Part shown: positions 10,600 through 26,518 of the stretch, piece after piece
Layout: every line of letters starts with the position of its first letter
Numbering within the stretch: the first letter of the stretch is position 1
Origin: Maricaulis sp.
GTDB taxonomy: Bacteria; Pseudomonadota; Alphaproteobacteria; Caulobacterales; Maricaulaceae
Direction of reading: 5' to 3'
NCBI RefSeq assembly: GCF_030149235.1
Contig: NZ_JASBRW010000083.1
Coordinates: 111,964-147,847, forward strand
Length of the DNA stretch: 35,884 nucleotides
Notes under the pieces: generated by a model
Told to the model about the DNA's origin: nothing
Database searches by the model: none
Seen by the model: the letters and a program-made list of their open reading frames with translations, nothing else
Made by a program: the position numbers and the translations under genes

Positions 10600-12129
10600 A
10601 TGACGTTTTTCCCAGCCCCGGCCGCCCCGAGCGGACCTGCGAATGACTGCTCCGAAACGCCGGTGCGCCAGGAGCGCGACACCGCCGCCTTGGCGCGTGC
10701 GCACCTCAAGGCCAAGACGCGGGCCCCGTCAAACCGGGTCAATCGCCGCGCCGCCGGCCGGACCTTCCAGATCATTGATACGGCAGCCATCCTGGCCCTT
10801 GCCGGTTTTTCAGCCATGATGGTCAGCCAGGGCCGCCTGGCCGCAACGCCGCTGGTCGACCTTCTGCCTCTCATCGCCCTTGCTGCCGTCGCCTTGATCG
10901 CTCTGCCCCTGGCCGGCGTCTACCGCATCGAACCGCGCCGCCCCCTCGCCCTGCAAATCCTGCGCGCTGTGAGCGCCACAGGCCTGGCTGGTATTGCCGG
11001 GGTGGCCACAGCCCTGGCTACAAGCCCGGCATCTGCGGACCTGCATGCCCTCATTGCCGTTGTTCTGACAGTCGCCTTGTTTGCGCTGCAGATGATCTAT
11101 GCCGGCATCGTCAATCACTGGGCCCGGGCCGGCCGTCTGGCCCGCAATGTCATCCTTGTCGGCGCCACGCACAATGCGCGCCATCTGATCGCGGCCAATT
11201 CCGGTTCCGGCTATGTCAATGTTGTCGGCGTGTTCGATGATCGCCAGACCCGCTCGCCCTCATTGCTGGCCGGCGCACCCTATCTGGGCACCACCGATGA
11301 CTTGTTCAACTGGCCGCTCCTGCACGAGGTCGACCGCATTATCCTGACCGTCTCCGCCAAGGCGGAGGAGCGCGTGCAGCACCTTCTGGAAAAGCTCCGC
11401 GCCCTGCCCCAGCCGGTCATCCTGCTGCTCGACATCAACGGCTTCAGCCCGGTCGAAACCAGTCTTGATGACCTGGTCGGCGTTCATGCTGCCCGTATGA
11501 GCGGCAGCGAGGAGCAGCTTGGCCGGCAAATCTCCAAGCGCGTGCAGGACGTGGTGTTCGGCTCCATCCTGACGCTGGCTGCTCTGCCGTTCATGGCGGT
11601 GATCGCTGTGGCGGTGAAACTGACCAGCCCCGGTCCGGCCCTGTTCCGGCAAACCCGCGAAGGTTTCCACGGCCGCCCGATCACGGTCTTCAAATTCCGC
11701 ACCATGCGGCATGATCCGCAAGCGGACAGCAAGGGCGTGCGCCAGGTCGAACTCAATGATCCGCGGGTCACCTCGATTGGTGGTTTCCTGCGCAAGACCA
11801 GTCTCGATGAACTGCCGCAGCTCTTCAACGTGCTGATCGGCACCATGTCGCTGGTCGGTCCGCGTCCGCACGCCCCCGGCATGCGCACCGGTGGGACCGA
11901 GACGTCAAAGCTGGTGGCGGAATACGCGCATCGCTATCGCGTCAAGCCGGGCATTACCGGCTGGGCCCAGATCAATGGGTCCCGCGGCCCGCTGCATTCC
12001 CCCGAAGCGGCCCGCGAGCGGGTCCGGCTCGACGTGGAGTATATTTCCCGCGCCGGTTTCTGGCTCGATATGTGGATCATGCTGCGCACCGTACCGGCAC
12101 TGCTGGGCGACAAGATCAACCTCCGCTAG
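10600..12129 (+). CDS. hfsE: Initiating polyprenyl-phosphate sugar-1-phosphate transferase (HfsE-like)
   Basis: A 509-residue membrane enzyme that transfers a hexose-1-phosphate from a nucleotide sugar to undecaprenyl phosphate, the first step of holdfast polysaccharide repeat-unit assembly at the inner membrane. I chose ATG 10600 because GAGGGAG lies about 8 bases upstream; the open frame further upstream overlaps the antisense SulP gene. Four N-terminal membrane segments (about 57-170) are followed by a CoA-binding-like domain (about 183-290), a fifth membrane segment (318-340) and the PF02397 catalytic domain. That domain has KFRTM (about 365-369), DELPQLFNVLIGTMSLVGPRP (about 403-423) and QINGSRG (about 457-463). 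It has the length and architecture of WcaJ/HfsE proteins. The gene leads the hfs-like cluster but is separated from hfsF by a minus-strand pair. Confidence 0.9.
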   Translation: MTFFPAPAAPSGPANDCSETPVRQERDTAALARAHLKAKTRAPSNRVNRRAAGRTFQIIDTAAILALAGFSAMMVSQGRLAATPLVDLLPLIALAAVALIALPLAGVYRIEPRRPLALQILRAVSATGLAGIAGVATALATSPASADLHALIAVVLTVALFALQMIYAGIVNHWARAGRLARNVILVGATHNARHLIAANSGSGYVNVVGVFDDRQTRSPSLLAGAPYLGTTDDLFNWPLLHEVDRIILTVSAKAEERVQHLLEKLRALPQPVILLLDINGFSPVETSLDDLVGVHAARMSGSEEQLGRQISKRVQDVVFGSILTLAALPFMAVIAVAVKLTSPGPALFRQTREGFHGRPITVFKFRTMRHDPQADSKGVRQVELNDPRVTSIGGFLRKTSLDELPQLFNVLIGTMSLVGPRPHAPGMRTGGTETSKLVAEYAHRYRVKPGITGWAQINGSRGPLHSPEAARERVRLDVEYISRAGFWLDMWIMLRTVPALLGDKINLR

Positions 12130-12140
12130 CCGCGGCCGGG

Positions 12141-13352
12141 TCAGTTCGGTGCCTTGACCCCGCGCTGACCGGCGTCCTCGCGATTGCGCACGCGCCGCAG
12201 CACCGGGTGCAGCCAGCAGGCAAGGGCCGGTGCCGGATCACGCCAGCTGAACACCAGGTCGACATTCGACCGGATCAGTCCACGCAGCAGGCGCAGTGCT
12301 CCGGTGATGCTCTCGCCCAGACTGGCCCCGTTTCGCATCCGCCAGACCCAGCCGGAGAAATCCCCCTTAGCCCAGTGATAGCGAACCCCCGTACGCGCCT
12401 TCGTCCACGGGTCCTCGGCCAGCGCGATATCCCGGCCCATCATCAGCTCGAACAGGACGCTGGCGATATCTGATCCGGCCGCCTCGGCACCGGCGATATT
12501 GGCCCCCAGACGCGGATTGATTTCCAGGAAGGAGGTCTCGTCGCTGTCGTGCGCCGTCATAAACTGGGCGCACCCGACACCGGTATAGTCGAGCGCCTCG
12601 ACAAGCGCCTCGGTGTGCTCGACCAAGTCCGGTCGCGGTGTGATCGAAATGCCCTCCACGGCATAGCCGGAACCGTCGGCCCGGTCGGTGCGTTCAATTT
12701 CGATGGCACAGGCGGTCAGGATGTCCCCGCCCCAGGCGACGAAATAATGGTTGATCCGGTTGCCATTGAGCCGGCGTTGCACCAACAGGTGAGCATGCTC
12801 ACCCGGCCAGGCCGGGAAAAGGTCGGCGAGCTCCGCCGGCGTATTCAGCGTGATCACCTTCTGGCCGAAAATGAACTGCCCCTCCCCGGTCGGCTTGACC
12901 ACGAGGGGGTAGCCGAGGCTTTCGCAGGCGCGGCGCAACTGGCTCAGATTGGCGACCGGGAGAAAATCGGCCAACGGCACGTTTTCCTGCCGGCACAGCT
13001 CGGCCATGCGGGTCTTGGAGACACAGCGGGCAATGACATCCGGGTCCGGCGACATGACCGTGACGGATTTGGGCAAGGCAGCGCGATAACCCGCCAGCAG
13101 ACGTGTGGCGCGGTCGGTCACCGGCACTATGACGTCGAATCCATAGTCCTCGCAATATTCCGCGATGGTCCGGATGCACAGGGATTCATTGGAGAAGTCG
13201 GGAATCGCCAGACTGCCGGCAACGCTGTTGGAACGCTCGAAATAGTCGCAATAACCGTTATGGCCGGCCCAGATTTCATGCCCCTGGCGATGCAGTGTAC
13301 GCGCCAGGGCGAAGGATGGACGATGATTCCCGATTAGGAACAGTTTGGCCAC
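12141..13352 (-). CDS. ATP-grasp ligase, function unknown
   Basis: A 403-residue protein with a CarB-like ATP-grasp fold. It has a pre-ATP-grasp Rossmann part (KLFLIGNH... to about residue 110), nucleotide-binding Lys at YPLVVKPTGEGQ (about K153), and the metal-binding ExN in SFLEINPRLGANIAG (about E277 and N279). The GTG start at 13352 is supported by AGGGGAG seven bases upstream. Such enzymes join a carboxylate to an amine or thiol through an acyl-phosphate. The last 80 residues (Trp/Arg rich) are not part of the common core. It lies 62 bases after the HfsK-like acyltransferase on the same strand and overlaps no neighbour. It is embedded between hfsE and hfsF, so modification of the polysaccharide or its precursor is an attractive inference, not shown by the sequence. 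Confidence 0.85.
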   Translation of the reverse strand: MAKLFLIGNHRPSFALARTLHRQGHEIWAGHNGYCDYFERSNSVAGSLAIPDFSNESLCIRTIAEYCEDYGFDVIVPVTDRATRLLAGYRAALPKSVTVMSPDPDVIARCVSKTRMAELCRQENVPLADFLPVANLSQLRRACESLGYPLVVKPTGEGQFIFGQKVITLNTPAELADLFPAWPGEHAHLLVQRRLNGNRINHYFVAWGGDILTACAIEIERTDRADGSGYAVEGISITPRPDLVEHTEALVEALDYTGVGCAQFMTAHDSDETSFLEINPRLGANIAGAEAAGSDIASVLFELMMGRDIALAEDPWTKARTGVRYHWAKGDFSGWVWRMRNGASLGESITGALRLLRGLIRSNVDLVFSWRDPAPALACWLHPVLRRVRNREDAGQRGVKAPN

Positions 13353-13414
13353 GATGTCTCCCCTTTTGCGGAAGGCGTCGCAAGCCGTGGACCATTGCCT
13401 GGGACCGGGCCGGG

Positions 13415-14500
13415 CTAGAGCGCGTAAAAACCGGCCATTTCGTCAATTCGTCTCAGGGCCTTGCCGGGCCAGCGGGCCGAGGGCACCGGGAGGCGTTCAA
13501 GCCGCTCCACCCACCCGTCCACGCTGCGGTGGATACGATTGCAAATCGGCGACGGGGCCAGGAAGCCCGATGCGAGACCCGTTTGATAACTGGCCAGCTC
13601 CTGCTTGAAGCCATAATCGCCAGGTCCAAGCTCAACGGAGGCCAGGCCGAGGTCGGCGGCCATGCGGATGAATTCCTCGAGCATTAAAAGACCAGGGCTG
13701 ATCCGTGAAAAATCGGCGTGGTAGGCCGGGAACCAGAAATGCGCCATGCGGTCGCTGACCATGCCGAGATGCACCGCTGCCAGGCGATTATCGACGGTCA
13801 GTGTCGACAACACGCCGCTGAAGCGAGGCGATTGCCGTTTCAGCACCGCGGCCAGGAGCTTTTGCGTCCACCCGACCCGGAAGGCATCGAACACGCCGGT
13901 TCGGCGGTATTGCGCACTCTTCCATTCCAGCAAGGTGGCAAAGGCCTCAGGACGCGGGTCGGCAAGCCGCACAGTATACCCAGCCTCGAAACGCTCCAGA
14001 CGCCGGCGCCGCATGTCCAGATTCTTGATCACCTTGGGCACAATCTCGCGCCGGTTGGCCCTCCAAGCTGCGAACCCCTCACTGGTATCGACTTGCCAGG
14101 AGCCGTCGCGGACCCGGGCATTGGCGGAGAACCCCGATTGGGCGGCCAACGCACTCTTGAACTCGAACAGGGAAATCCCGGCCTGTGAGATCAGCGCGGT
14201 TGGGGCCAGCCCATAGCCGGGTTCGGTGATCACACCATGGACATCCCCGAGCGGGCCACCGATGGGGCGGGCAATTCCGAGGCGCCCGGTCTGTAGCGGC
14301 AGAAAGGCCTTGATCGCTCCCTTCCGGCGATGGATGACAACCCGCGTATCGGCCCGGGCTTCTTCGCAGCATTCGGCAAATTCAGGCGCAAAATATGGAC
14401 TTCCGAGCAATGGATCCGCCGCGACGAAAGCCTGCCAAGCCTCGCGTTCTGCAGCCGTCAACTCGCTCGGCCGCTTCAGCTGTGTCTCGCCCTGGTTCAT
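13415..14500 (-). CDS. hfsK: FemAB/GNAT-fold acyltransferase, HfsK-like
   Basis: A 361-residue soluble protein of the BioF2/CelD-like GNAT group (Acetyltransf_6). The N-terminal half has SPYFAPEFAE, and the C-terminal half has RLAAVHLGMVSDRMAHFWFPAYHADFSRISPGLLMLEEFIRMA (about residues 240-285), the typical fold of FemAB-type transferases. The following SVELGPGDYGFKQELA matches the family's closing motif. In Caulobacter, HfsK is an N-acyltransferase and c-di-GMP effector that alters holdfast cohesion; placement inside this locus suggests the same job. The symbol is tentative. The start is uncertain: ATG 14500 has AGG directly abutting it, and GTG 14530 gives 10 more residues but no better ribosome site. 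It is divergent from hfsF and probably co-transcribed with the ATP-grasp gene. Confidence 0.7.
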   Translation of the reverse strand: MNQGETQLKRPSELTAAEREAWQAFVAADPLLGSPYFAPEFAECCEEARADTRVVIHRRKGAIKAFLPLQTGRLGIARPIGGPLGDVHGVITEPGYGLAPTALISQAGISLFEFKSALAAQSGFSANARVRDGSWQVDTSEGFAAWRANRREIVPKVIKNLDMRRRRLERFEAGYTVRLADPRPEAFATLLEWKSAQYRRTGVFDAFRVGWTQKLLAAVLKRQSPRFSGVLSTLTVDNRLAAVHLGMVSDRMAHFWFPAYHADFSRISPGLLMLEEFIRMAADLGLASVELGPGDYGFKQELASYQTGLASGFLAPSPICNRIHRSVDGWVERLERLPVPSARWPGKALRRIDEMAGFYAL

Positions 14501-14651
14501 CCTGAGACGCCCGGTTCGGCCGCTCCCCACTCAACTGCATGAGAAGACTATTGCAATCGCCTTAGCAGGCAGTGAATACGCTGTCTCATCCCTCCCCTGC
14601 CAATCGGCACCGGATTTGCAATCTTCCCCTCTGAGGCGAGCGGAGCGTGCC
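14501..14651. promoter_or_regulatory. Divergent intergenic region with direct repeats TTGCAATC
   Basis: This 151-base spacer between the HfsK-like gene and hfsF holds two copies of TTGCAATC, at 14551-14558 and 14616-14623, 65 bases apart. They could be binding sites for a shared regulator of the two divergent units. No clear -35/-10 pair is visible. Confidence 0.3.
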
Positions 14652-16106
14652 ATGCTTGGACGACATCTTCTGGGGTATCTGCCGGTGCAACTGGCACAGG
14701 CCATTGTGGGCTTCGGCTCCGTGGCTGTGTTCACGCGGCTGATGTCAGCGGAGGACTATGGTGTCTATGCGCTCGCCATTGCCTCTCTGGCCCTGATTCA
14801 CATCCTTGGCTTCACCTGGCTGGAAGCCGCTGTCGCACGCTATCACGCCCGGGCAGAGATGCGCGGACGGTTGCGCGATCACCTGGCGACGGCCTATGCC
14901 CTTTACGCCGGTGCCGCCGTCATCGGCGTTCTGGCAATCGGCACGGCGCTCACGCTGCTCCCGCTCGACATCAAGCTGAAAAGCGCCTTCGCCTTCGCTG
15001 CTGTTTCGCTGCTGCTGCGTGCCCTGTTGCAGATCGGTCTGGAGACGCATCGGGCGCAGGGCGATATCGGCCGCTATTCCGCAATCGAAGCCAGCTTTCT
15101 CATGGCCGGTTTCATGCTTGGCGTCGGCCTCCTGATCACAACCGACCTGGGTGCCGGCGGTATTTTCCTGGGCACCGCGATTGCCGCTGGCCTAGCGCTG
15201 CTCGTTGATCTGCCGGTAATGCTGCGCCGGACGCGCGGTGGCCGTCGGCAGACGGTACGCGCGCAGACCTATGGCCGCTATGGCGCCGCCATTTCTGTCT
15301 CGCTGGTGTTTGAACACCTTTTGTCGATCGGCGACCGTTTCCTGATCGCCGCCTTTCTCGGCTCCGGAGCTGTCGGCATGTATGCGGCCGGCTACGGTCT
15401 CGCGGATCGCTTGCTGGACATCATTTTCATCTGGTTCGGCACCGCCATCTGGCCGCTGACCATCCGCGCCCTTGAAAGCGAAGGCGAAGCCGCCGCCAAG
15501 GACATGGCGCACAAGGCAGCTGGCATGATGGCCCTGATCGCCTTCCCGGCGGCCGCCGGGCTGGCTCTCGTTGCCGAACCTCTGACGACCCTGATCATCG
15601 GCGAAAGCGTCCGTGCACAGGCCGCGACCATCCTGCCCTGGATCGCCTTTTCCGGGCTGATCAACGGCATGATGACCTATTATTTCCACGAGGCCTTTAC
15701 GTTGAAACGAAAGACCGGCGTGATGGCGCTTTTGATGGCTGGAGCCGCGGTTCTCAATCTGGGTCTCAACCTGGTCCTGATCCCGCATTTCGGCATTACC
15801 GGCGCCGCTGCCGCGACGGTCATCGCCTACGCATTGGCCCTGGTCGCCTGCGCCATTATCGGTCGTCGCCATTTTGTCCTGCCGCTGCCGTGGAATGACT
15901 GGATCAAGGCGGCCAGCGCCACCTTCGTGATGGCGGCTGCCGTTATCAACCTGCCCTCCACGGGCGTGTCCTGGGTGGACCTGCTGGCACAGGCCAGCGC
16001 TGGCGGCGTGGTGTATGCGGCCCTCGCCCTTGCCTTCAATATCGCCGGCTGCCGCAGCTGGCTCGCCACCTTGCGCCCAACGCGTCAAACCATCGAGGTC
16101 CAGTAA
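14652..16106 (+). CDS. hfsF: Polysaccharide repeat-unit flippase (Wzx/HfsF-like)
   Basis: A 484-residue polytopic membrane protein of the MOP superfamily (PST/Wzx branch), with about 12-14 hydrophobic segments along its whole length. It should flip undecaprenyl-linked repeat units from the cytoplasmic to the periplasmic face. It starts with a typical flippase pattern (LPVQLAQAIVGFGSVAVFTRLMSAEDYGVYALA), and the centre carries the conserved SIGDRFLIAAFLGSGAVGMYAAGYG segment. I chose ATG 14652 since GGAG lies 6-7 bases upstream; the frame is open further upstream but runs antisense through the acyltransferase gene. The stop TAA overlaps the next start by one base (TAATG), so hfsF and hfsG should be translationally coupled. 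Its position before hfsG and hfsH matches the Caulobacter order. Confidence 0.88.
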   Translation: MLGRHLLGYLPVQLAQAIVGFGSVAVFTRLMSAEDYGVYALAIASLALIHILGFTWLEAAVARYHARAEMRGRLRDHLATAYALYAGAAVIGVLAIGTALTLLPLDIKLKSAFAFAAVSLLLRALLQIGLETHRAQGDIGRYSAIEASFLMAGFMLGVGLLITTDLGAGGIFLGTAIAAGLALLVDLPVMLRRTRGGRRQTVRAQTYGRYGAAISVSLVFEHLLSIGDRFLIAAFLGSGAVGMYAAGYGLADRLLDIIFIWFGTAIWPLTIRALESEGEAAAKDMAHKAAGMMALIAFPAAAGLALVAEPLTTLIIGESVRAQAATILPWIAFSGLINGMMTYYFHEAFTLKRKTGVMALLMAGAAVLNLGLNLVLIPHFGITGAAAATVIAYALALVACAIIGRRHFVLPLPWNDWIKAASATFVMAAAVINLPSTGVSWVDLLAQASAGGVVYAALALAFNIAGCRSWLATLRPTRQTIEVQ

Positions 16107-17044
16107 TGCGAGAACTTGCGACTTTCACGACCACGACCAATGCCGCAGCCAATCGCAGTGCGGGTGCACGCCTGTCGATCCTCATCCCCTTCTACAAGGA
16201 TGATCCGACGCGCCTGATGACGTCCCTGAACACGCTGATCGGGGCGCGTTGCGAGTTTGAAATCCTGCTGCTCGATGATGGCTGTCCGAACATGGATCTC
16301 AACAACGCTGTCGCCCGTACACTGCGCGCCATGGTGACACCCGCCCGCTTGATCTCGATGGCGGAGAATGTCGGCCGGGCCGAGGGCCGCAATCTGCTCG
16401 CTCGCGAGGCCCGCGGCGACTGGCTGCTTTATCTTGATGCCGATATGCAGCCCTGTGACGACGCCTTCCTCACCGCCTATCTCGAGCGCATCGAGGATGG
16501 CGGGTTCGACGCCGCTTTCGGTGGCTATGTCGTCCCAGAAAGCGCCGAAGCCGAGCACGCCCTGCACGCCGCGCTGTCCCGCTCCAGCGACCACAGCGAT
16601 GCCAGCCTGCGCAGTGAGATTGGTGCGACAGCCTTTTGCTCCAGCAACCTCCTGGTCCGCCGCTCGGTCATGATCGATGTGCCGTTTGATAGCGGTTTCA
16701 CCGGTTGGGGCTGGGAAGATATCGACTGGGCTGTCCGCGCCGGGGCAGCCTTCCGGCTCATTCATCTCGACAATGCCGCGCGCCATGACGGGCTTCAGCC
16801 CGCCGAGGCCCTGTTGTCCAAATTCCGGCAGGGCGCGGTCAATTACGCGCGTCTCTTGGACAAGCACCCGGAGCTGGAAACGTTGCCGGGGGCGAAGGCT
16901 GCTCGCGCCCTTGGCGCCATTCCGTTTCAGTCCGCGCTGCGCGGGCTCTGGTCCCGCCTGGTGAAGAGCCGGAAAGCCCCGATGCGTGTGCGCACCCTGG
17001 CGCTGAAACTCTGGCGCGCCAGCTGGACTGCGGAGGCCATTTGA
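16106..17044 (+). CDS. hfsG: Family 2 glycosyltransferase (HfsG-like)
   Basis: A 312-residue GT2 enzyme (GT-A fold) that would add a sugar from a nucleotide donor to the lipid-linked holdfast intermediate on the cytoplasmic side. It shows the N-terminal LSILIPFYKDD strand, LLLDDG near residue 57, NVGRAEGRNLLAREARGDWLLYLDADM (DxD near residues 111-113), and the galactosyltransferase-like GFTGWGWEDIDWAVRAG near residues 196-212. The start ATG overlaps the hfsF stop by one base and the stop TGA overlaps the next start (TGATG), so it lies inside a coupled operon. The gene name rests on position between the flippase and deacetylase; sugar specificity cannot be read. Confidence 0.85.
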   Translation: MRELATFTTTTNAAANRSAGARLSILIPFYKDDPTRLMTSLNTLIGARCEFEILLLDDGCPNMDLNNAVARTLRAMVTPARLISMAENVGRAEGRNLLAREARGDWLLYLDADMQPCDDAFLTAYLERIEDGGFDAAFGGYVVPESAEAEHALHAALSRSSDHSDASLRSEIGATAFCSSNLLVRRSVMIDVPFDSGFTGWGWEDIDWAVRAGAAFRLIHLDNAARHDGLQPAEALLSKFRQGAVNYARLLDKHPELETLPGAKAARALGAIPFQSALRGLWSRLVKSRKAPMRVRTLALKLWRASWTAEAI

Positions 17045-17811
17045 TGAACGCTCCATACAGCCCGTCGAGCTTTTCTGCCCGCATTACCCGCCAGGTTGCC
17101 CGTTTCGCGGCGCGCCGGCCACTGCCGATCCATCCCGACCACGCCATCGTCTCCTTCAGCTTCGATGACTTTCCAAAATCCGCCGCAACTCTGGGGGCGC
17201 CGGCCCTGGAGCAGCGCGGCTGGCGCGGCACCTATTACGCCAGCGCGGGCCTGGCCGGTACGACGAACCATCATGGTGAGCAGTTCGATGCCGGTGACAT
17301 TGTCGATCTGAACGCCCGCGGTCATGAGATCGGCTGCCACACGTTTGAACATGTCGACTGTGCCCAGGCCGACGTCGATACGGTGATGGATAGCCTCGAT
17401 CGCAATGCCAATGCGCTTCGGCGCATGGGGTTGAGCGAACCGCTGAGCAGTTTTGCCTTTCCTTACGGAGAAGCCAGCCTCGAGGCCAAGCGGGCCCTGT
17501 CGAGCCGTTTTGCCTCCATGCGGGGTGTGCGGGCGGAGATCAATCGTGGAACCGGTGACCTCAACCTGCTGCGCGCTGTCGCACTGGATGGTGGGGACGC
17601 CGGTATCGAACGGGCCATCGAGGCCGCGAATAGCCTGATCCAGGCGCCGGGCTGGCTCATCTACTACGCCCATGACATCCAGGAACAGCCCAGCGAATGG
17701 GGCTGCACGCCTGAGCAATTCGACCGGGTTTGCCACGCGGTTGAGGCCAGCGGAGCACGTGTCATGACCGTACGTGACGCCCTCAAAAGCCTGCTGGAGG
17801 ACCAGACATGA
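17044..17811 (+). CDS. hfsH: Polysaccharide deacetylase (HfsH-like)
   Basis: A 255-residue NodB-fold (CE4) deacetylase. In Caulobacter, HfsH removes acetyl groups from N-acetylhexosamine of the holdfast, needed for adhesion and anchoring. The catalytic motifs are present: SFSFDDFP (base and metal Asp, about residues 39-42), HEIGCHTFEHVD (two metal His, about 94-105) and FAFPYGEAS, where the classical Arg of motif 3 is replaced, as in other FAxPYG members. No signal peptide is seen, so it probably acts in the cytoplasm on lipid-linked precursors. I used ATG 17044, which overlaps the hfsG stop; an in-frame TTG three bases earlier is less likely. Its stop overlaps the next ATG (ATGA). Confidence 0.88.
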   Translation: MNAPYSPSSFSARITRQVARFAARRPLPIHPDHAIVSFSFDDFPKSAATLGAPALEQRGWRGTYYASAGLAGTTNHHGEQFDAGDIVDLNARGHEIGCHTFEHVDCAQADVDTVMDSLDRNANALRRMGLSEPLSSFAFPYGEASLEAKRALSSRFASMRGVRAEINRGTGDLNLLRAVALDGGDAGIERAIEAANSLIQAPGWLIYYAHDIQEQPSEWGCTPEQFDRVCHAVEASGARVMTVRDALKSLLEDQT

Positions 17812-18710
17812 GCCTTGCTGTCATCATTCCAACCTACCGCCGGCCCGGCGGACTGAGGGCTGCGATTGAAAGCGTTCTGCGCCAGAGCCGGACGGCGGAC
17901 GAAATCATCGTCGTCGACAATGCGCCAGAAGGCTGTGCCAAGGACACGGTTGAGGATTTCCGCGATCCAGCCATCGCCTACATCCATGTTCCCGAACCGG
18001 GGGTCGCCAATGCGCGCAATGCCGGTCTTACCGCGACCGACGCGCGCTATATCGCCTTCCTCGATGATGACGAGATTGCCTCGGAGCACTGGCTTGCAGC
18101 CTTGTCCAACACTCAAGCGGCGCTCGATGTTGCCGTGGTCTTCGGGCCTCTTCAGGCTCGCGCCCAGGCCGACGGCCGGCTACGGCAGCACTTGCTCAAC
18201 CGGCTCTACTCACGTCCGGGTCCCGAAGAGGACCAGCGTTTGGACAAGCCCTATGGGTGCGGCAATTCCCTGATCGATCGCGAGGCCGTCCAGATTGGTG
18301 CGCGTCCCTTCGACACAGCGCTGAACGAAACCGGCGGCGAAGACGATGCCTTCTTCGCGATGCTGGAGGATCAAGGCGCACGTTTCGGCTGGGCCAGCCA
18401 GGCCCATGCTGTGGAATGCGTCGATCCGAAGCGGTCCAGCTGGGACTATATGTTGTCTCGCAGCTTCGCCTTTGGTCAGGGTCCGAGCCAGACCTGCGCC
18501 CATGGCCCCCGCCCGGACTGGCTGGGTGTGGCCCGCTGGATGGCGATCGGTGTTGTGCAACTGGCCGTGTTTGCGCCGCTGGCCGTGCTGGTCAGCGTCG
18601 TCAATGCGCGCCAGGGCGCCAGCCTGATCGATCGCACCGCCCAGGCGGCTGGCAAGGTCTGCTGGTTCGACCGGTTCTCGCCGCGCTTTTACGGTCGAGC
18701 TGCCGGGTAG
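17808..18710 (+). CDS. hfsL: Family 2 glycosyltransferase (possibly HfsL)
   Basis: A 300-residue GT2 enzyme. The N-terminal AVIIPTYRRPGGLRAAIESVLRQ and IIVVDNAPEG are followed by PGVANARNAGLTATDARYIAFLDDDE, a metal-binding DDD near residues 84-86, and NETGGEDDAFFAML near residues 177-189 (catalytic ED). The C-terminal third has a hydrophobic stretch (about residues 243-266) suggesting membrane association. The ATG overlaps the deacetylase stop by four bases. In Caulobacter the HfsL glycosyltransferase lies away from the main cluster, so the name here is only positional and needs a homology search. Its last 22 bases overlap the convergent hfsC coding end. Confidence 0.8.
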   Translation: MSLAVIIPTYRRPGGLRAAIESVLRQSRTADEIIVVDNAPEGCAKDTVEDFRDPAIAYIHVPEPGVANARNAGLTATDARYIAFLDDDEIASEHWLAALSNTQAALDVAVVFGPLQARAQADGRLRQHLLNRLYSRPGPEEDQRLDKPYGCGNSLIDREAVQIGARPFDTALNETGGEDDAFFAMLEDQGARFGWASQAHAVECVDPKRSSWDYMLSRSFAFGQGPSQTCAHGPRPDWLGVARWMAIGVVQLAVFAPLAVLVSVVNARQGASLIDRTAQAAGKVCWFDRFSPRFYGRAAG

Positions 18711-20649: not shown

Positions 20650-22212
20650 TTACGCCCGACGCTCGGCAACACGCGCGAGGATCGGCAGATCGCCATAGGA
20701 CACCGGCGGCGGGTGCGGAGTATAAGCCGCGGCTGCGGCGGGCGGGGCATAGGCCGCGGCAGCTGGTACCGACATGCTGACCGGGGCATAACGGGTCGGC
20801 TGCGAATAAGCCGGGCGGCGAGCGCGCAGATAGGCATCCCAATAGCCGCGCAAAAGACCGGCCATCAGCGCAACGCCGCCGGACAGGACCAGGACCGCGA
20901 TCAGAGCCAGTTTCTTCAGAGAAGAGCCCTGCAAGGGCGGCGCGGCGCGGTCAAAGACCCGGACGGCGTCAGCGGCGCCCGGGCCGAGCGAACGACGGGC
21001 GGCAGCGATGGCTTCCTGGCCAGCGAGCAGTCCCGCAGTCGCCTCGGCAGCCGTGACGTTCTGGGACAAGCGGGTAAAGGCCGGCTCGAGATCGCGCAAA
21101 CGCGACACTTCAGCCTGGGCCGCCACCAGCTGGCGTTCCAGCACGGCGACGCGATTGGCCTCGGCCTGGGCATTGGCCCGGCGGGTGGCCAGATCGGTCT
21201 CCATCGCCTGGCGGACAGGGTTCACACCCGTGCGCTGTTGCCCCAGCCCCACCGCACCACCAGCAGCCAGAAGGCCCTCGATCGCTTCGATTTCGCGATC
21301 CAGTGCGACGACGGGCGGAGCGCCCGGCTGATAGCGCGACAGCAATTGCTCGCGTTCGACCCGCCGTTCCAGCAGGAGATTGGTCGCACCATTCTCGACG
21401 TAGAGCTGGATGCTTTCGGGAATATTGGCGAGGCGGGCCTGCAGGGCATTGGCCCCGGCATTAGCCGAATCGCGCTCTGCCGCGGCCAGGCGCAGGCGAT
21501 CCTGAATTGCGCTGACGCTGGTTTCGGCCGCCAGCTTGTCACTGTCAAAATTGGCCAGCTGGTTTGAGGTCAAGAAGACATCCAGCGCAGACTGGGCCTC
21601 GCGAACCGCAATATCGGCCTGACCGCGACGCTCGGTCAGGGTCGACACTCCGGCCTCGACCAGGACTTGCTGGCGGTAAGCGAGATACGCGTCAACGACG
21701 GCATTGAGCACGAGCGCCGCCCGATCCGGATCGGCGGCTTCATAGCGCGCGATCAGGGCGGAGGAATTGGGCTCCCGGCTGATCGACAGCCCGGTTTGCA
21801 AGGCCTTGCGGGCCGCGCGATCGGCATCACCGACAACGGGCTCACCCAGCACCGCAGCCGCCCCAATCGTCTGAATGGCCAGGCGCTGAACGGCATCGGA
21901 GCCCAGAAGCTCGCTCTCCGACTGCATGATCTGGTCGAGCATAAACGCCCCACCGGCACCTGCTGCAGACGGCGTAGGGTCGTTCTCGAGCAGAACGAGG
22001 AGCCGCGACTCGGCCTCATAGCTCGGCTTCACCAGAAGCAGGACAGCGGCCACACCGGCCGCAAAAAGTACGGCGAAAATCAGCGCGATAAAGCCCTTTT
22101 GCGCCCAGGCCAGGGCCAGGACGTCAAACAGGTCGAGCCCCTCACGGCTTCCGCCGCCAGGAGGCGGGGCGGAACCGGCGGGCGCACCGGGGTAATCATG
22201 AACGCGCGTCAT
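20650..22212 (-). CDS. hfsA: Wzz/GumC-type polysaccharide co-polymerase (HfsA-like)
   Basis: A 520-residue inner-membrane protein with two transmembrane segments (about 40-62 and 434-455) enclosing a large periplasmic domain with long alpha-helical, heptad-like stretches (about 180-400), as in chain-length regulators of PF02706. It should couple polymerisation to export through HfsD. The N-terminus is a Pro/Gly-rich cytoplasmic tail (residues 8-24). The C-terminal cytoplasmic tail (462-520) is rich in Ala, Pro and Tyr (Tyr near 461, 469, 475, 488, 497, 506) and ends GDLPILARVAERRA, like the linker that leads into the kinase domain in fused Wzc proteins. hfsA is divergent from hfsD (88-base spacer) and is followed by hfsB and hfsC. 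Confidence 0.85.
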   Translation of the reverse strand: MTRVHDYPGAPAGSAPPPGGGSREGLDLFDVLALAWAQKGFIALIFAVLFAAGVAAVLLLVKPSYEAESRLLVLLENDPTPSAAGAGGAFMLDQIMQSESELLGSDAVQRLAIQTIGAAAVLGEPVVGDADRAARKALQTGLSISREPNSSALIARYEAADPDRAALVLNAVVDAYLAYRQQVLVEAGVSTLTERRGQADIAVREAQSALDVFLTSNQLANFDSDKLAAETSVSAIQDRLRLAAAERDSANAGANALQARLANIPESIQLYVENGATNLLLERRVEREQLLSRYQPGAPPVVALDREIEAIEGLLAAGGAVGLGQQRTGVNPVRQAMETDLATRRANAQAEANRVAVLERQLVAAQAEVSRLRDLEPAFTRLSQNVTAAEATAGLLAGQEAIAAARRSLGPGAADAVRVFDRAAPPLQGSSLKKLALIAVLVLSGGVALMAGLLRGYWDAYLRARRPAYSQPTRYAPVSMSVPAAAAYAPPAAAAAYTPHPPPVSYGDLPILARVAERRA

Positions 22213-22300: not shown

Positions 22301-23032
22301 ATGCGAGCGTCCCGCCTCGGCCTGACCATTGCCGTCTCTCTCGGCCTTGCGGCCTGCGCCAGCTCCGGTTCTCAAGCCCCCCACCCCGACCCGGACTGGG
22401 CAGGCCGCTTCGCCGCCTGGGAAGAGACCGATCCCGCCTATCGCTTCTTTCCGGGCGACAGCATTGTCGTGACAGTGCACTCCGCCCCCGAGCTCTCGAC
22501 CACAACGCCGATCGGACCTGATGGCCGCGTCAGCCTGCCGCTTCTGGGCAATGTCATGGTGGCCAACCGGACCGATTATGAAATCGCCGGTGTCGTCGCC
22601 GACGCCTATGCGCAATCGGTCCTGGTCTCACCCATCGTCGAGGTGCGCCGCGGCGATCTGGGTCGGCAAAATATCGTTGTCGGTGGTGAAGTGACCAATC
22701 CGGGTCTGGTCGAAATGACAGGCCCGGTCGGCGCGCTCGAAGCGGTGATGCTGGCCGGAGGATTCCGCAACACAGCCGCTCGCGGCGAGGTCGTCGTCCT
22801 GCGGCGTCAGCCGGGCGGACGCTTGATGATGCGGGTGGTGAATGTACGCCAGGCGCTCAATGGCCGTGTCGATGCCGACCAGATTCAGCTAAGGCGCCAT
22901 GACCTGGTCTTCGTGCCGCGCTCGACCGTGGCGGAAGTGACGAATTTCGTTGAGCAATATGTCTACGGCGTGCTGCCACTGGATCAGGCGCTGTCGTTTG
23001 CGATTGCGGATGCGATCAACGACAATAACTAG
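22301..23032 (+). CDS. hfsD: Outer-membrane polysaccharide export lipoprotein (Wza/GumB, HfsD-like)
   Basis: A 243-residue lipoprotein with signal peptide and lipobox LGLAAC (Cys19 as lipid anchor). A Poly_export (PF02563) domain covers about residues 46-120 (FFPGDSIVVTVHSAPEL and IGPDGRVSLPLLGNVMVANRT). An SLBB-like domain follows (NIVVGGEVTNPGLVEM and GALEAVMLAGGFRNTA, about 125-165). It would form the outer-membrane pore through which the holdfast polysaccharide leaves the cell. ATG 22301 has GAGG about 8 bases upstream. The end contains HDLVFVPRSTVAEVTNFVEQYVYGVLP, a membrane-spanning helix pattern of Wza-like proteins. Divergent from hfsA, as in Caulobacter. Confidence 0.9.
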   Translation: MRASRLGLTIAVSLGLAACASSGSQAPHPDPDWAGRFAAWEETDPAYRFFPGDSIVVTVHSAPELSTTTPIGPDGRVSLPLLGNVMVANRTDYEIAGVVADAYAQSVLVSPIVEVRRGDLGRQNIVVGGEVTNPGLVEMTGPVGALEAVMLAGGFRNTAARGEVVVLRRQPGGRLMMRVVNVRQALNGRVDADQIQLRRHDLVFVPRSTVAEVTNFVEQYVYGVLPLDQALSFAIADAINDNN

Positions 23033-25357: not shown

Positions 25358-25570
25358 CAATGTCCCCAGCACTCCCCGTTGCCGACATTTCTCCGGAATG
25401 TGGCCTAATGCAAGCGCTTACCCGTGCCGGGCGAAACCTCAAGCCCGACACATGGCAGTTGGGACGATCCAACTGCCCGTGATGCTGCGAATGCGACGTT
25501 GCGGCGCTTGGCACGAGCGGGGCAAAGCCTTATCCCAAGGCGCGAGAAAACATATGCAAGAGGCCGAGCG

Positions 25571-26518
25571 ATGACCGCCACTGATTCCCTGACCCGTTTC
25601 CCGCCGGTTTCGATGAAGCTGCAGAAGAGCGATCCGAAAGCCTTCGCACATGAGCTGGGCAAGAGCTTCCGGGAATATGGCTTCGCGGCAATTGCTGATC
25701 ATGGCCTGGACCAGGCGCTGATCGATCGCGCTTATGAGGTGGCAGCCAAATTCTTCGCCCTGCCTGAAGAAACCAAGATGAAATACTTCATCGAAAAGGG
25801 CGGCGGCGCGCGCGGCTATACCCCGTTCGGCACCGAGATCGCCAAGGATGCCCAGCACGTCGATCTGAAGGAATTCTGGCATGTCGGCCGCGACCTGCCC
25901 GCAGGCCATCCTTATGAAAAGGACATGGCACCGAATGTGGTCCCGGAAGAAGTCGAGGAATGGGTCTCGGTTATTCACGCCCTCTACGCCGCCTTTGATG
26001 AACTGGGCAAGGACGTGTTGCGGGCCATCGCGACCGATCTCGGCCTTGAGGAAAATTTCTTCGAAGACACGGTTCGCGACGGCAATTCGGTCATGCGCCT
26101 GCTGCACTATCCGCCGGTGCAGGGCGATACTGGCGGATCGATCCGCGCCGAAGCGCATGGCGACATCAACACCATCACCCTGCTGCTCGGTGCCGATGAG
26201 CCCGGCCTGCAGGTGATGACGCGTGACGGCGAATGGGTCGATATGAACCCGCCGGCCGGCTGCCTGGCGGTCAATATGGGCGATATGCTGTCGCGCTCGA
26301 CCAATGGTGTCCTGCCCTCGACGCAGCACCGGGTCATCAACCCCAAGGGCGCCCGCACCGAGCACTCGCGCTACTCCATGCCCTTCTTCCTGCACTATCG
26401 CCCGGACTATCTTATCGAGACCCTGCCCGGCTGCGAACGCGAAGGCGTGGAAAGCCCGGAACCGATCACGGCGCACGACTTTCTGCATCAGCGCCTGAAG
26501 GAAATCGGCCTGATGTAG
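25571..26518 (+). CDS. 2-oxoglutarate/Fe(II)-dependent oxygenase, isopenicillin N synthase family
   Basis: A 315-residue cytoplasmic oxidoreductase of the isopenicillin N synthase-like family. The iron ligands are visible as EAHGDIN (H196, D198) and TQHRVINP (H253), and the 2-oxoglutarate binder is SRYS (R267 with S269). The N-terminal half carries the DIOX_N pattern (GFAAIADHGLDQALIDRAYEVAAKFFALPEETK). I chose ATG 25571, with AAGAGG about eight bases upstream; the frame is open for 49 more codons upstream but they look non-coding. The reaction cannot be named from the sequence; hydroxylation of a small molecule is likely. The gene is followed by a strong terminator. Confidence 0.9.
   Translation: MTATDSLTRFPPVSMKLQKSDPKAFAHELGKSFREYGFAAIADHGLDQALIDRAYEVAAKFFALPEETKMKYFIEKGGGARGYTPFGTEIAKDAQHVDLKEFWHVGRDLPAGHPYEKDMAPNVVPEEVEEWVSVIHALYAAFDELGKDVLRAIATDLGLEENFFEDTVRDGNSVMRLLHYPPVQGDTGGSIRAEAHGDINTITLLLGADEPGLQVMTRDGEWVDMNPPAGCLAVNMGDMLSRSTNGVLPSTQHRVINPKGARTEHSRYSMPFFLHYRPDYLIETLPGCEREGVESPEPITAHDFLHQRLKEIGLM

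Follow-up and report, generated by a model that had tools for sequence, protein, structure and literature searches.

An ATP-grasp ligase-like gene beside hfsK in the holdfast locus of a Maricaulis genome: a possible partner in polysaccharide decoration

INTRODUCTION

HfsK has been linked to the holdfast, a very strong biological glue, and the polysaccharide precursors of this glue are its proposed acylation target (PMC5362036; this source, PMC8449245 and PMC4431377 are cited throughout from excerpts). An arginine pair, RR352, in the C-terminal extension of HfsK contributes to c-di-GMP binding, Caulobacter carries two further HfsK paralogues, and hfsK was located within the holdfast (hfs) loci of Maricaulis maris and two relatives, with orthology stated for M. 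maris (PMC5362036). The hfsK gene of C. crescentus, by contrast, is not part of the hfs locus (PMC8449245). No ATP-grasp partner of HfsK is described in the main texts of PMC5362036 and PMC8449245, from which the term is absent. Here, we analyse a stretch of 35,884 nucleotides of Maricaulis sp. (contig NZ_JASBRW010000083.1, positions 111,964 to 147,847; hereafter the window), from an assembly of 87 contigs that is 90% complete, in which a gene for an ATP-grasp carboxylate-amine ligase-like protein adjoins an hfsK-type gene inside a holdfast locus. We propose that this ligase works with the HfsK/FemAB acyltransferase on lipid-linked repeat units before these are flipped, a reading to which we give an even chance.

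The concept of operons that link ATP-grasp peptide ligases to GNAT acyltransferases was reportedly introduced by Iyer et al. in 2009. A comparable division of labour exists in the peptidoglycan precursor branch, with its Mur ligases, FemABX transferases and the flippase MurJ. In the linked operons, the ATP-grasp and GNAT products are predicted to act in turn, so that what one enzyme ligates is then extended by a second ligase or capped with an acyl group, and O-antigen and teichuronopeptides are named among the products of linked ligases (PMC4431377). The Maricaulis pair resembles these operons in that a ligase gene stands beside a GNAT gene. It differs in the ligase, which is of another family, like that of carbamoyl-phosphate synthase (CPS), and in the setting, a Wzy-type holdfast locus or, in other genomes, the vicinity of a dedicated flippase gene. 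The likeness to the peptidoglycan branch would lie in an ATP-dependent amide ligase, a FemABX-type transferase and a flippase of the MOP superfamily serving one lipid-linked sugar; the holdfast locus differs in having no Mur-family ligase. Both the locus and the type of enzyme pairing are known, and what appears to be new is the ligase subfamily and its place as a component of a holdfast locus. We found no paper joining ATP-grasp and holdfast, or ATP-grasp, FemAB and exopolysaccharide, in a literature search outside which most subscription papers lay; within that scope, the view of a preliminary description of the window that the suggested two-step decoration is not among the known holdfast components stands.

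RESULTS AND DISCUSSION

The gene pair in the holdfast locus

The preliminary description had placed two minus-strand open reading frames (ORFs) between hfsE and hfsF in a Caulobacter-type holdfast locus. Both ORFs are intact and lie exactly 62 bp apart at this place:

12141..13352, minus strand: ATP-grasp carboxylate-amine ligase-like gene, 403 amino acids (aa), GTG start; CPSase_L_D2 30.4 bits, cut-off 19.8
13353..13414: 62-bp gap from hfsK to the ATP-grasp gene, with no terminator-like site in it
13415..14500, minus strand: hfsK-type GNAT/FemAB acyltransferase gene, 361 aa (371 aa with an upstream GTG); Acetyltransf_6 116.8 bits, cut-off 22

The assignment of the locus was likewise confirmed. 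The best NCBIfam names of the flanking genes are HfsE, HfsF, HfsG and HfsH, all under the curated equivalog cut-offs, and Wzy_C, Wzz and Poly_export domains mark hfsC, hfsA and hfsD, so that the E/F/G/H set occurs together with Wzy (C), Wzz (A) and Wza (D) functions.

The 13415-14500 product has the family (PF13480, GNAT/FemX-like) and the size (∼360 aa) of HfsK, and in a tree built without Caulobacter sequences it groups with the HfsK clade placed at the hfs loci of Maricaulis and sister genera. It shares with Caulobacter HfsK, besides the family, the existence of two more paralogues elsewhere in the genome (38% and 34% identity); with published HfsK it shares a location in an hfs locus. An arginine pair near its C terminus, Arg350-Arg351, may correspond to the published RR352. 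Searched against solved structures, the HfsK profile gave nothing at E<=0.01.

For the second protein, the CarB-like assignment and the presence of K153, E277 and N279, as described previously, were borne out by the domain match and by a residue alignment. Each of the 18 aligned family homologues has Q263, E277, N279 and R281. At position 153, 14 of them carry lysine and four carry arginine, the latter being three genes of genus g8 and one of g15 (our labels), all outside hfs loci. All 18 match PF02786 (CPSase_L_D2) at E<=0.01, the window protein above the cut-off, and the profile finds carbamoyl-phosphate synthase among solved structures at E 2.6e-18. In the ATP-grasp domain of the CPS large subunit (1bxr), a fold shared by homology, the four invariant residues align with Q829, E841, N843 and R845, and K153 with R715 (hand-counted positions). 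The ATP and Mg residues expected of an ATP-grasp domain are in place. The window protein differs from CPS in having a single short ATP-grasp unit and a C-terminal part of ∼90 residues peculiar to it. The product of 12141-13352 is thus a real and, by its intact residues, probably active ATP-grasp enzyme, and seems to be a carboxylate-amine ligase of a subfamily not described before.

Clustering with a housekeeping family of known substrate had been named as a finding that would overturn the earlier proposal. The protein reached no NCBIfam equivalog, the best being the carbamoyl-phosphate synthase-like PRK12767 group at 46.4 bits against a cut-off of 218, so a housekeeping identity is not supported, several distant homologues with housekeeping-like neighbours notwithstanding. 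Membership of ATPgrasp_Ter (PF15632) was also rejected, at 24.8 bits under the gathering cut-off of 29.1, as was a role in a defence system, neither the ATP-grasp protein nor HfsK having a PADLOC match at E<=0.01.

The gene is rare. The source genome holds one close copy, the next best homologue standing at E 3.1e-4. At the thresholds used, and counting the source genome each time, it occurs in 17 of 137 genomes of the family (18 loci), and matches were obtained in 22/398 sampled genomes of the order, 5/387 of the class and 1/397 of the phylum, the three wider searches scoring at most four candidates per genome. Full-length distant homologues (23-24% identity) were also seen on two haloarchaeal plasmids (L210:8001-9227 and L211:8001-9149); no named exopolysaccharide genes lie near the homologue on the annotated plasmid, the other record being unannotated there.

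hfsK is resident and the ATP-grasp gene is an addition

The window proteins were compared with 42 fetched loci, which gave 16 Maricaulis hfs loci, the window included; the others were chosen by their HfsK match, and genomes G068, G071 and G072 were left out. Within the reach of the fetched stretches and contigs, the hfs gene set and its order are identical across the 16. In all of them, and in the loci fetched from g6, g8 and g15, hfsK adjoins hfsF, a constancy that is in Maricaulis partly a selection effect because the loci were picked by HfsK match. The preliminary description had regarded both genes as an insertion. They do split hfsE from hfsF, but only the ATP-grasp gene is inserted: HfsK is present in all 16 loci, and its occurrence at hfs loci of relatives has been published.

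Three of 19 Maricaulis genomes carry the ATP-grasp gene, which, being absent from the other 16, is not needed for the holdfast as such. The expectation of a linkage conserved across relatives therefore failed in its simple, genus-wide form. Among the carriers, G075 repeats the arrangement of the window, with 86% (ATP-grasp) and 79% (HfsK) identity; Maricaulis sp. BWSM_11, presumably the same genome, likewise has an ATP-grasp protein 86% identical to that of the window. In the third, G073, the order is hfsK, a GH5-like gene, the ATP-grasp gene and hfsE. Such a GH5-like gene stands beside hfsK in 15 of 22 loci (L053, L054 and L070-L089, of which L082 meets a contig end); its place is taken by the ATP-grasp gene in the window and in G075. 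Examples of this GH5/cellulase-like gene are L054:9044-10222 (PF00150, 42.8 bits), L070:10786-11985 and L083:8300-9565; the excerpts of the holdfast literature mention no GH5-like component.

In a tree of joined HfsE, HfsF, HfsG and HfsH (20 rows: 16 Maricaulis and four g8), the three carriers form one clade with support 100/99. Scored on 19 rows, this tree requires one gain of the ATP-grasp gene, which is kept in all three genomes of the carrier clade. It also requires the GH5-like gene to change twice, most plausibly by being lost both times. The ratio of non-synonymous to synonymous substitution rates (dN/dS) of the ATP-grasp gene against G075 is 0.089, and hfsE, hfsF, hfsG, hfsH and hfsK give 0.067-0.108 in the same comparison; against G073 the ratio is 0.18, at a saturated dS of 2.1. 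The repeated arrangement in G075 and the dN/dS of 0.09 show that the ATP-grasp ORF is not a chance ORF. Thus, hfsK is the resident gene, to which one lineage has added the ATP-grasp gene in a single gain, and purifying selection has kept it there.

These comparisons bear on the possibility that the ATP-grasp protein is a bystander, an amino-acid or small-molecule ligase whose gene entered the hfs locus at a gap that tolerates insertions and which plays no part in holdfast synthesis. The small number of carriers, the twofold change of the GH5-like gene at the same slot and the unrelated contexts of homologues in g8, g15, f2 and f3 fit this explanation. The dN/dS values of 0.09-0.19 across the carrier clade (the higher ones with saturated dS) do not, nor do two features described below: the position downstream of a FemAB gene, matched in an independent pair, and the flippase neighbours in three lineages. 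We consider a bystander possible, if rather unlikely.

A second, independent pairing of FemAB and ATP-grasp genes

In three other genera of the family, g16-g18, the gene of a distant ATP-grasp protein of the same subfamily (ATPg2, 27-29% identity to the window protein) lies directly downstream of that of another FemAB paralogue (FemAB2). At E<=1e-100 the FemAB2 clade is present in nine of the 137 family genomes; its profile was built from eight of these nine, and several of our profiles were made from rows later counted as matches. ATPg2 adjoins FemAB2 in all nine, a conserved adjacency of the kind expected of linked ATP-grasp and GNAT pairs. Eight pairs are complete, and in the ninth genome, G105, the contig stops 74 residues into ATPg2 (84% identity). 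In seven measured loci the two genes are separated by -10 to +10 bp, against 62 bp for the pair of the window. Of the three Maricaulis carriers, two have hfsK and the ATP-grasp gene side by side, and one has another gene between them. In all pairs, the FemAB gene is upstream of the ATP-grasp gene on the same strand.

The ATP-grasp tree (26 of 28 loci, L060 and L066, which run off contig ends, being left out) places the Maricaulis clade (100/100) outside a 100/99 group made of the paired clade and unpaired genes of two other families. In the FemAB tree (45 rows), the partners of the two pairings are split by a 100/96 branch. A single origin of the pairs was rejected by the approximately unbiased test for both proteins (p 3.45e-5 for ATP-grasp and 9.51e-6 for FemAB), the groups having been named after the trees were seen and long branches being flagged in the ATP-grasp tree. 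On these trees, the two FemAB/ATP-grasp pairings are independent assemblies. Chance adjacency to a FemAB gene can be roughly estimated at half a percent per genome, given two to three HfsK-like genes per 3 Mb and a 6-kb window. That enzymes of these two kinds were brought together twice independently suggests a joint decoration of sugar-polymer building blocks. This part of the preliminary proposal, a joint function, is therefore favoured by the existence of the second pair.

Flippase genes and a membrane protein accompany some ATP-grasp homologues

Besides that of the window, 27 ATP-grasp loci were inspected over at most 20 kb each, some ending at contig ends, and 10 of them contain a FemAB gene. 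Flippase genes neighbour the ATP-grasp gene in three lineages. Where the contig reaches, which is the case in seven genomes, FemAB2-ATPg2 adjoins the gene of a second HfsF-like flippase (37-39% identity to the window HfsF); these seven have the canonical HfsF copy (42-48%) beside hfsG elsewhere. The second flippase, distinct from canonical HfsF, is represented by L061:10347-11786 of G109, with counterparts in G098, G106, G110-G112, G114 and G124. In G109 (L061), the sole genome with the pair and the canonical genes together, the FemAB2-ATPg2 module directly follows hfsC-B-A and hfsD; the same contig also holds hfsF-G-H-L, which end ∼12 kb upstream of the module.

A multi-transmembrane protein with a DCCH motif, not described before, was observed in the same surroundings. 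It has 215-257 aa, S-x-DCCH-x-YYG in most members and conserved DD, H, ED and K; no family match above the cut-off was obtained, and the way its polar residues are arranged points to a membrane enzyme. Its gene adjoins or is near the ATP-grasp gene in 12 of the 27 loci (L061:11783-12556, L058:6829-7551, L123:9125-9772, L128:10741-11514 and others). At E<=1e-100 it occurs exactly in the eight genomes with a complete FemAB2-ATPg2 pair, and more weakly in four others, the profile being built partly from its positive genomes.

In the f13 lineage, the ATP-grasp gene adjoins the DCCH protein gene and a Wzx-type flippase gene (L128 by Pfam, L130 by eye), with no FemAB gene within the fetched stretch. 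This composition fits an ATP-grasp enzyme that acts on the holdfast without HfsK, by amidating the carboxyl group of a uronic acid or by putting an acid on an amine freed by HfsH, which could provide free amines, the position beside hfsK being a matter of how modification genes are laid out. On that account, it would be a coincidence that a FemAB gene was paired twice, independently and in one and the same order, and we consider it unlikely.

Proposed function and mechanism

Returning to joint action of the ligase and HfsK, we build on the intact catalytic residues, the gene order, the single gain followed by purifying selection and the second FemAB pairing by a flippase gene. The two enzymes would share a substrate, the undecaprenyl-linked holdfast repeat unit in the cytoplasm. 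The cytoplasmic face is the simplest site because no transmembrane segments are predicted in the ATP-grasp protein, HfsK or HfsH. There, HfsH would free amino groups on N-acetyl sugars, and HfsK would N-acylate an amine, with acyl-CoA or aminoacyl-tRNA as its activated donor. At the expense of ATP, the ATP-grasp enzyme would link a carboxylate and an amine of the same decoration in an amide; it would either lengthen the group that HfsK has placed or attach an acid straight to the amine of the sugar. HfsF would then flip the decorated unit and HfsC would polymerise it.

The order of steps had been proposed the other way round, with a free acyl or peptide group made by the ligase and then moved onto the glycan by HfsK. 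Physical pairing is compatible with this order. The product of an ATP-grasp ligase is a finished amide and not an activated donor, whereas known GNAT/FemAB enzymes use an activated one, acyl-CoA or aminoacyl-tRNA. A further activating enzyme would be required, and none is apparent among the annotated genes of the hfs locus. We therefore regard ligase-first action as very improbable, and prefer a ligase that builds on or complements what HfsK has placed, or that joins an acid to an HfsH-freed amine.

Several observations weigh against joint action in the holdfast. The gene is found in three of 19 Maricaulis genomes (three of the 16 without it being <90% complete), and a GH5-like gene separates it from hfsK in G073, the genome against which dS exceeds 2 and dN/dS values are rough. 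No FemAB gene and no clear hfs match were present within the inspected stretch in 17 of the 27 other ATP-grasp loci, and in g8 and g15 the neighbours look like housekeeping genes by eye. In six paired genomes, canonical hfsF and hfsG are on another contig than the FemAB2-ATPg2 pair, and in G111 (79% complete) no canonical hfsF or hfsG was found, the flippase gene being found in its second kind alone, on another contig. An AlphaFold2 model of the ATP-grasp protein (window and L023 sequences) was unusable (pLDDT 43.5, pTM 0.33). Finally, deletion of hfsK together with both paralogues in Hirschia baltica caused no defect in biofilm formation or holdfast binding, as assayed by the authors (PMC8449245).

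If a joint decoration exists, a ligase-dependent mass difference may lead to the donor and the acceptor of what HfsK adds to the holdfast. It would also suggest that holdfast composition evolves by swapping decoration genes, GH5-like or ATP-grasp, at one slot, which may underlie differences in adhesion among species. A wider version of the idea, to our mind quite unlikely, is that a module resembling peptidoglycan precursor synthesis (amide ligase, FemX-type transferase and MOP flippase) has been recruited repeatedly to holdfast-type polysaccharides and makes aminoacylated or peptide-bearing lipid-linked units. In these lineages, part of the protein-like component reported for the holdfast would then be a non-ribosomal, sugar-borne decoration and not a secreted protein. 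Protein constituents are lost from the holdfast of an hfsH mutant (PMC8449245), and one may speculate that this material could be sugar-borne.

Other features of the window

The remaining features of the locus are the following, gene starts other than those listed in this work being guesses:

10600..12129, plus strand: hfsE, initiating sugar-phosphate transferase; NCBIfam HfsE 481 bits, cut-off 750; Bac_transf 206 bits; longest ORF from 10312
14501..14651: divergent intergenic region between hfsK and hfsF
14652..16106, plus strand: hfsF, Wzx/MOP-type flippase; NCBIfam HfsF 424 bits, cut-off 700; longest ORF from 14226
16106..17044, plus strand: hfsG, GT2 glycosyltransferase; NCBIfam HfsG 275 bits, cut-off 500
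17041..17811, plus strand: hfsH, oligosaccharide deacetylase; NCBIfam HfsH 233 bits, cut-off 400; no predicted transmembrane segment (hydropathy)
17808..18710, plus strand: GT2 glycosyltransferase, probably hfsL, a name given from locus position; Glycos_transf_2 88 bits
18689..19966, minus strand: hfsC-like Wzy polymerase; Wzy_C 63.9 bits
19963..20583, minus strand: hfsB-like protein, by position; no Pfam family, weak tyrosine-kinase/CpaE-like NCBIfam matches
20650..22212, minus strand: hfsA-like Wzz chain-length protein; Wzz 29.2 bits, cut-off 25.5
22301..23032, plus strand: hfsD-like Wza export protein; Poly_export 62.8 bits

No promoter-like site was found in the scanned sequence, and the one terminator-like site, on the plus strand inside the ATP-grasp gene, is fewer than shuffled sequence gives. 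Among the compared loci, hfsC of G073 (L054:2494-3737) and hfsG of G086 (L087:11873-12767) align in two pieces, which suggests frameshifts or assembly errors. The ORF at 25439-26488 (minus strand) was discarded as the antisense of a 2-oxoglutarate (2OG)-Fe(II) oxygenase gene, and matches under its name were disregarded. That oxygenase gene (PF14226, PF03171) lies at 25424-26518 on the plus strand, some 2.4 kb past hfsD.

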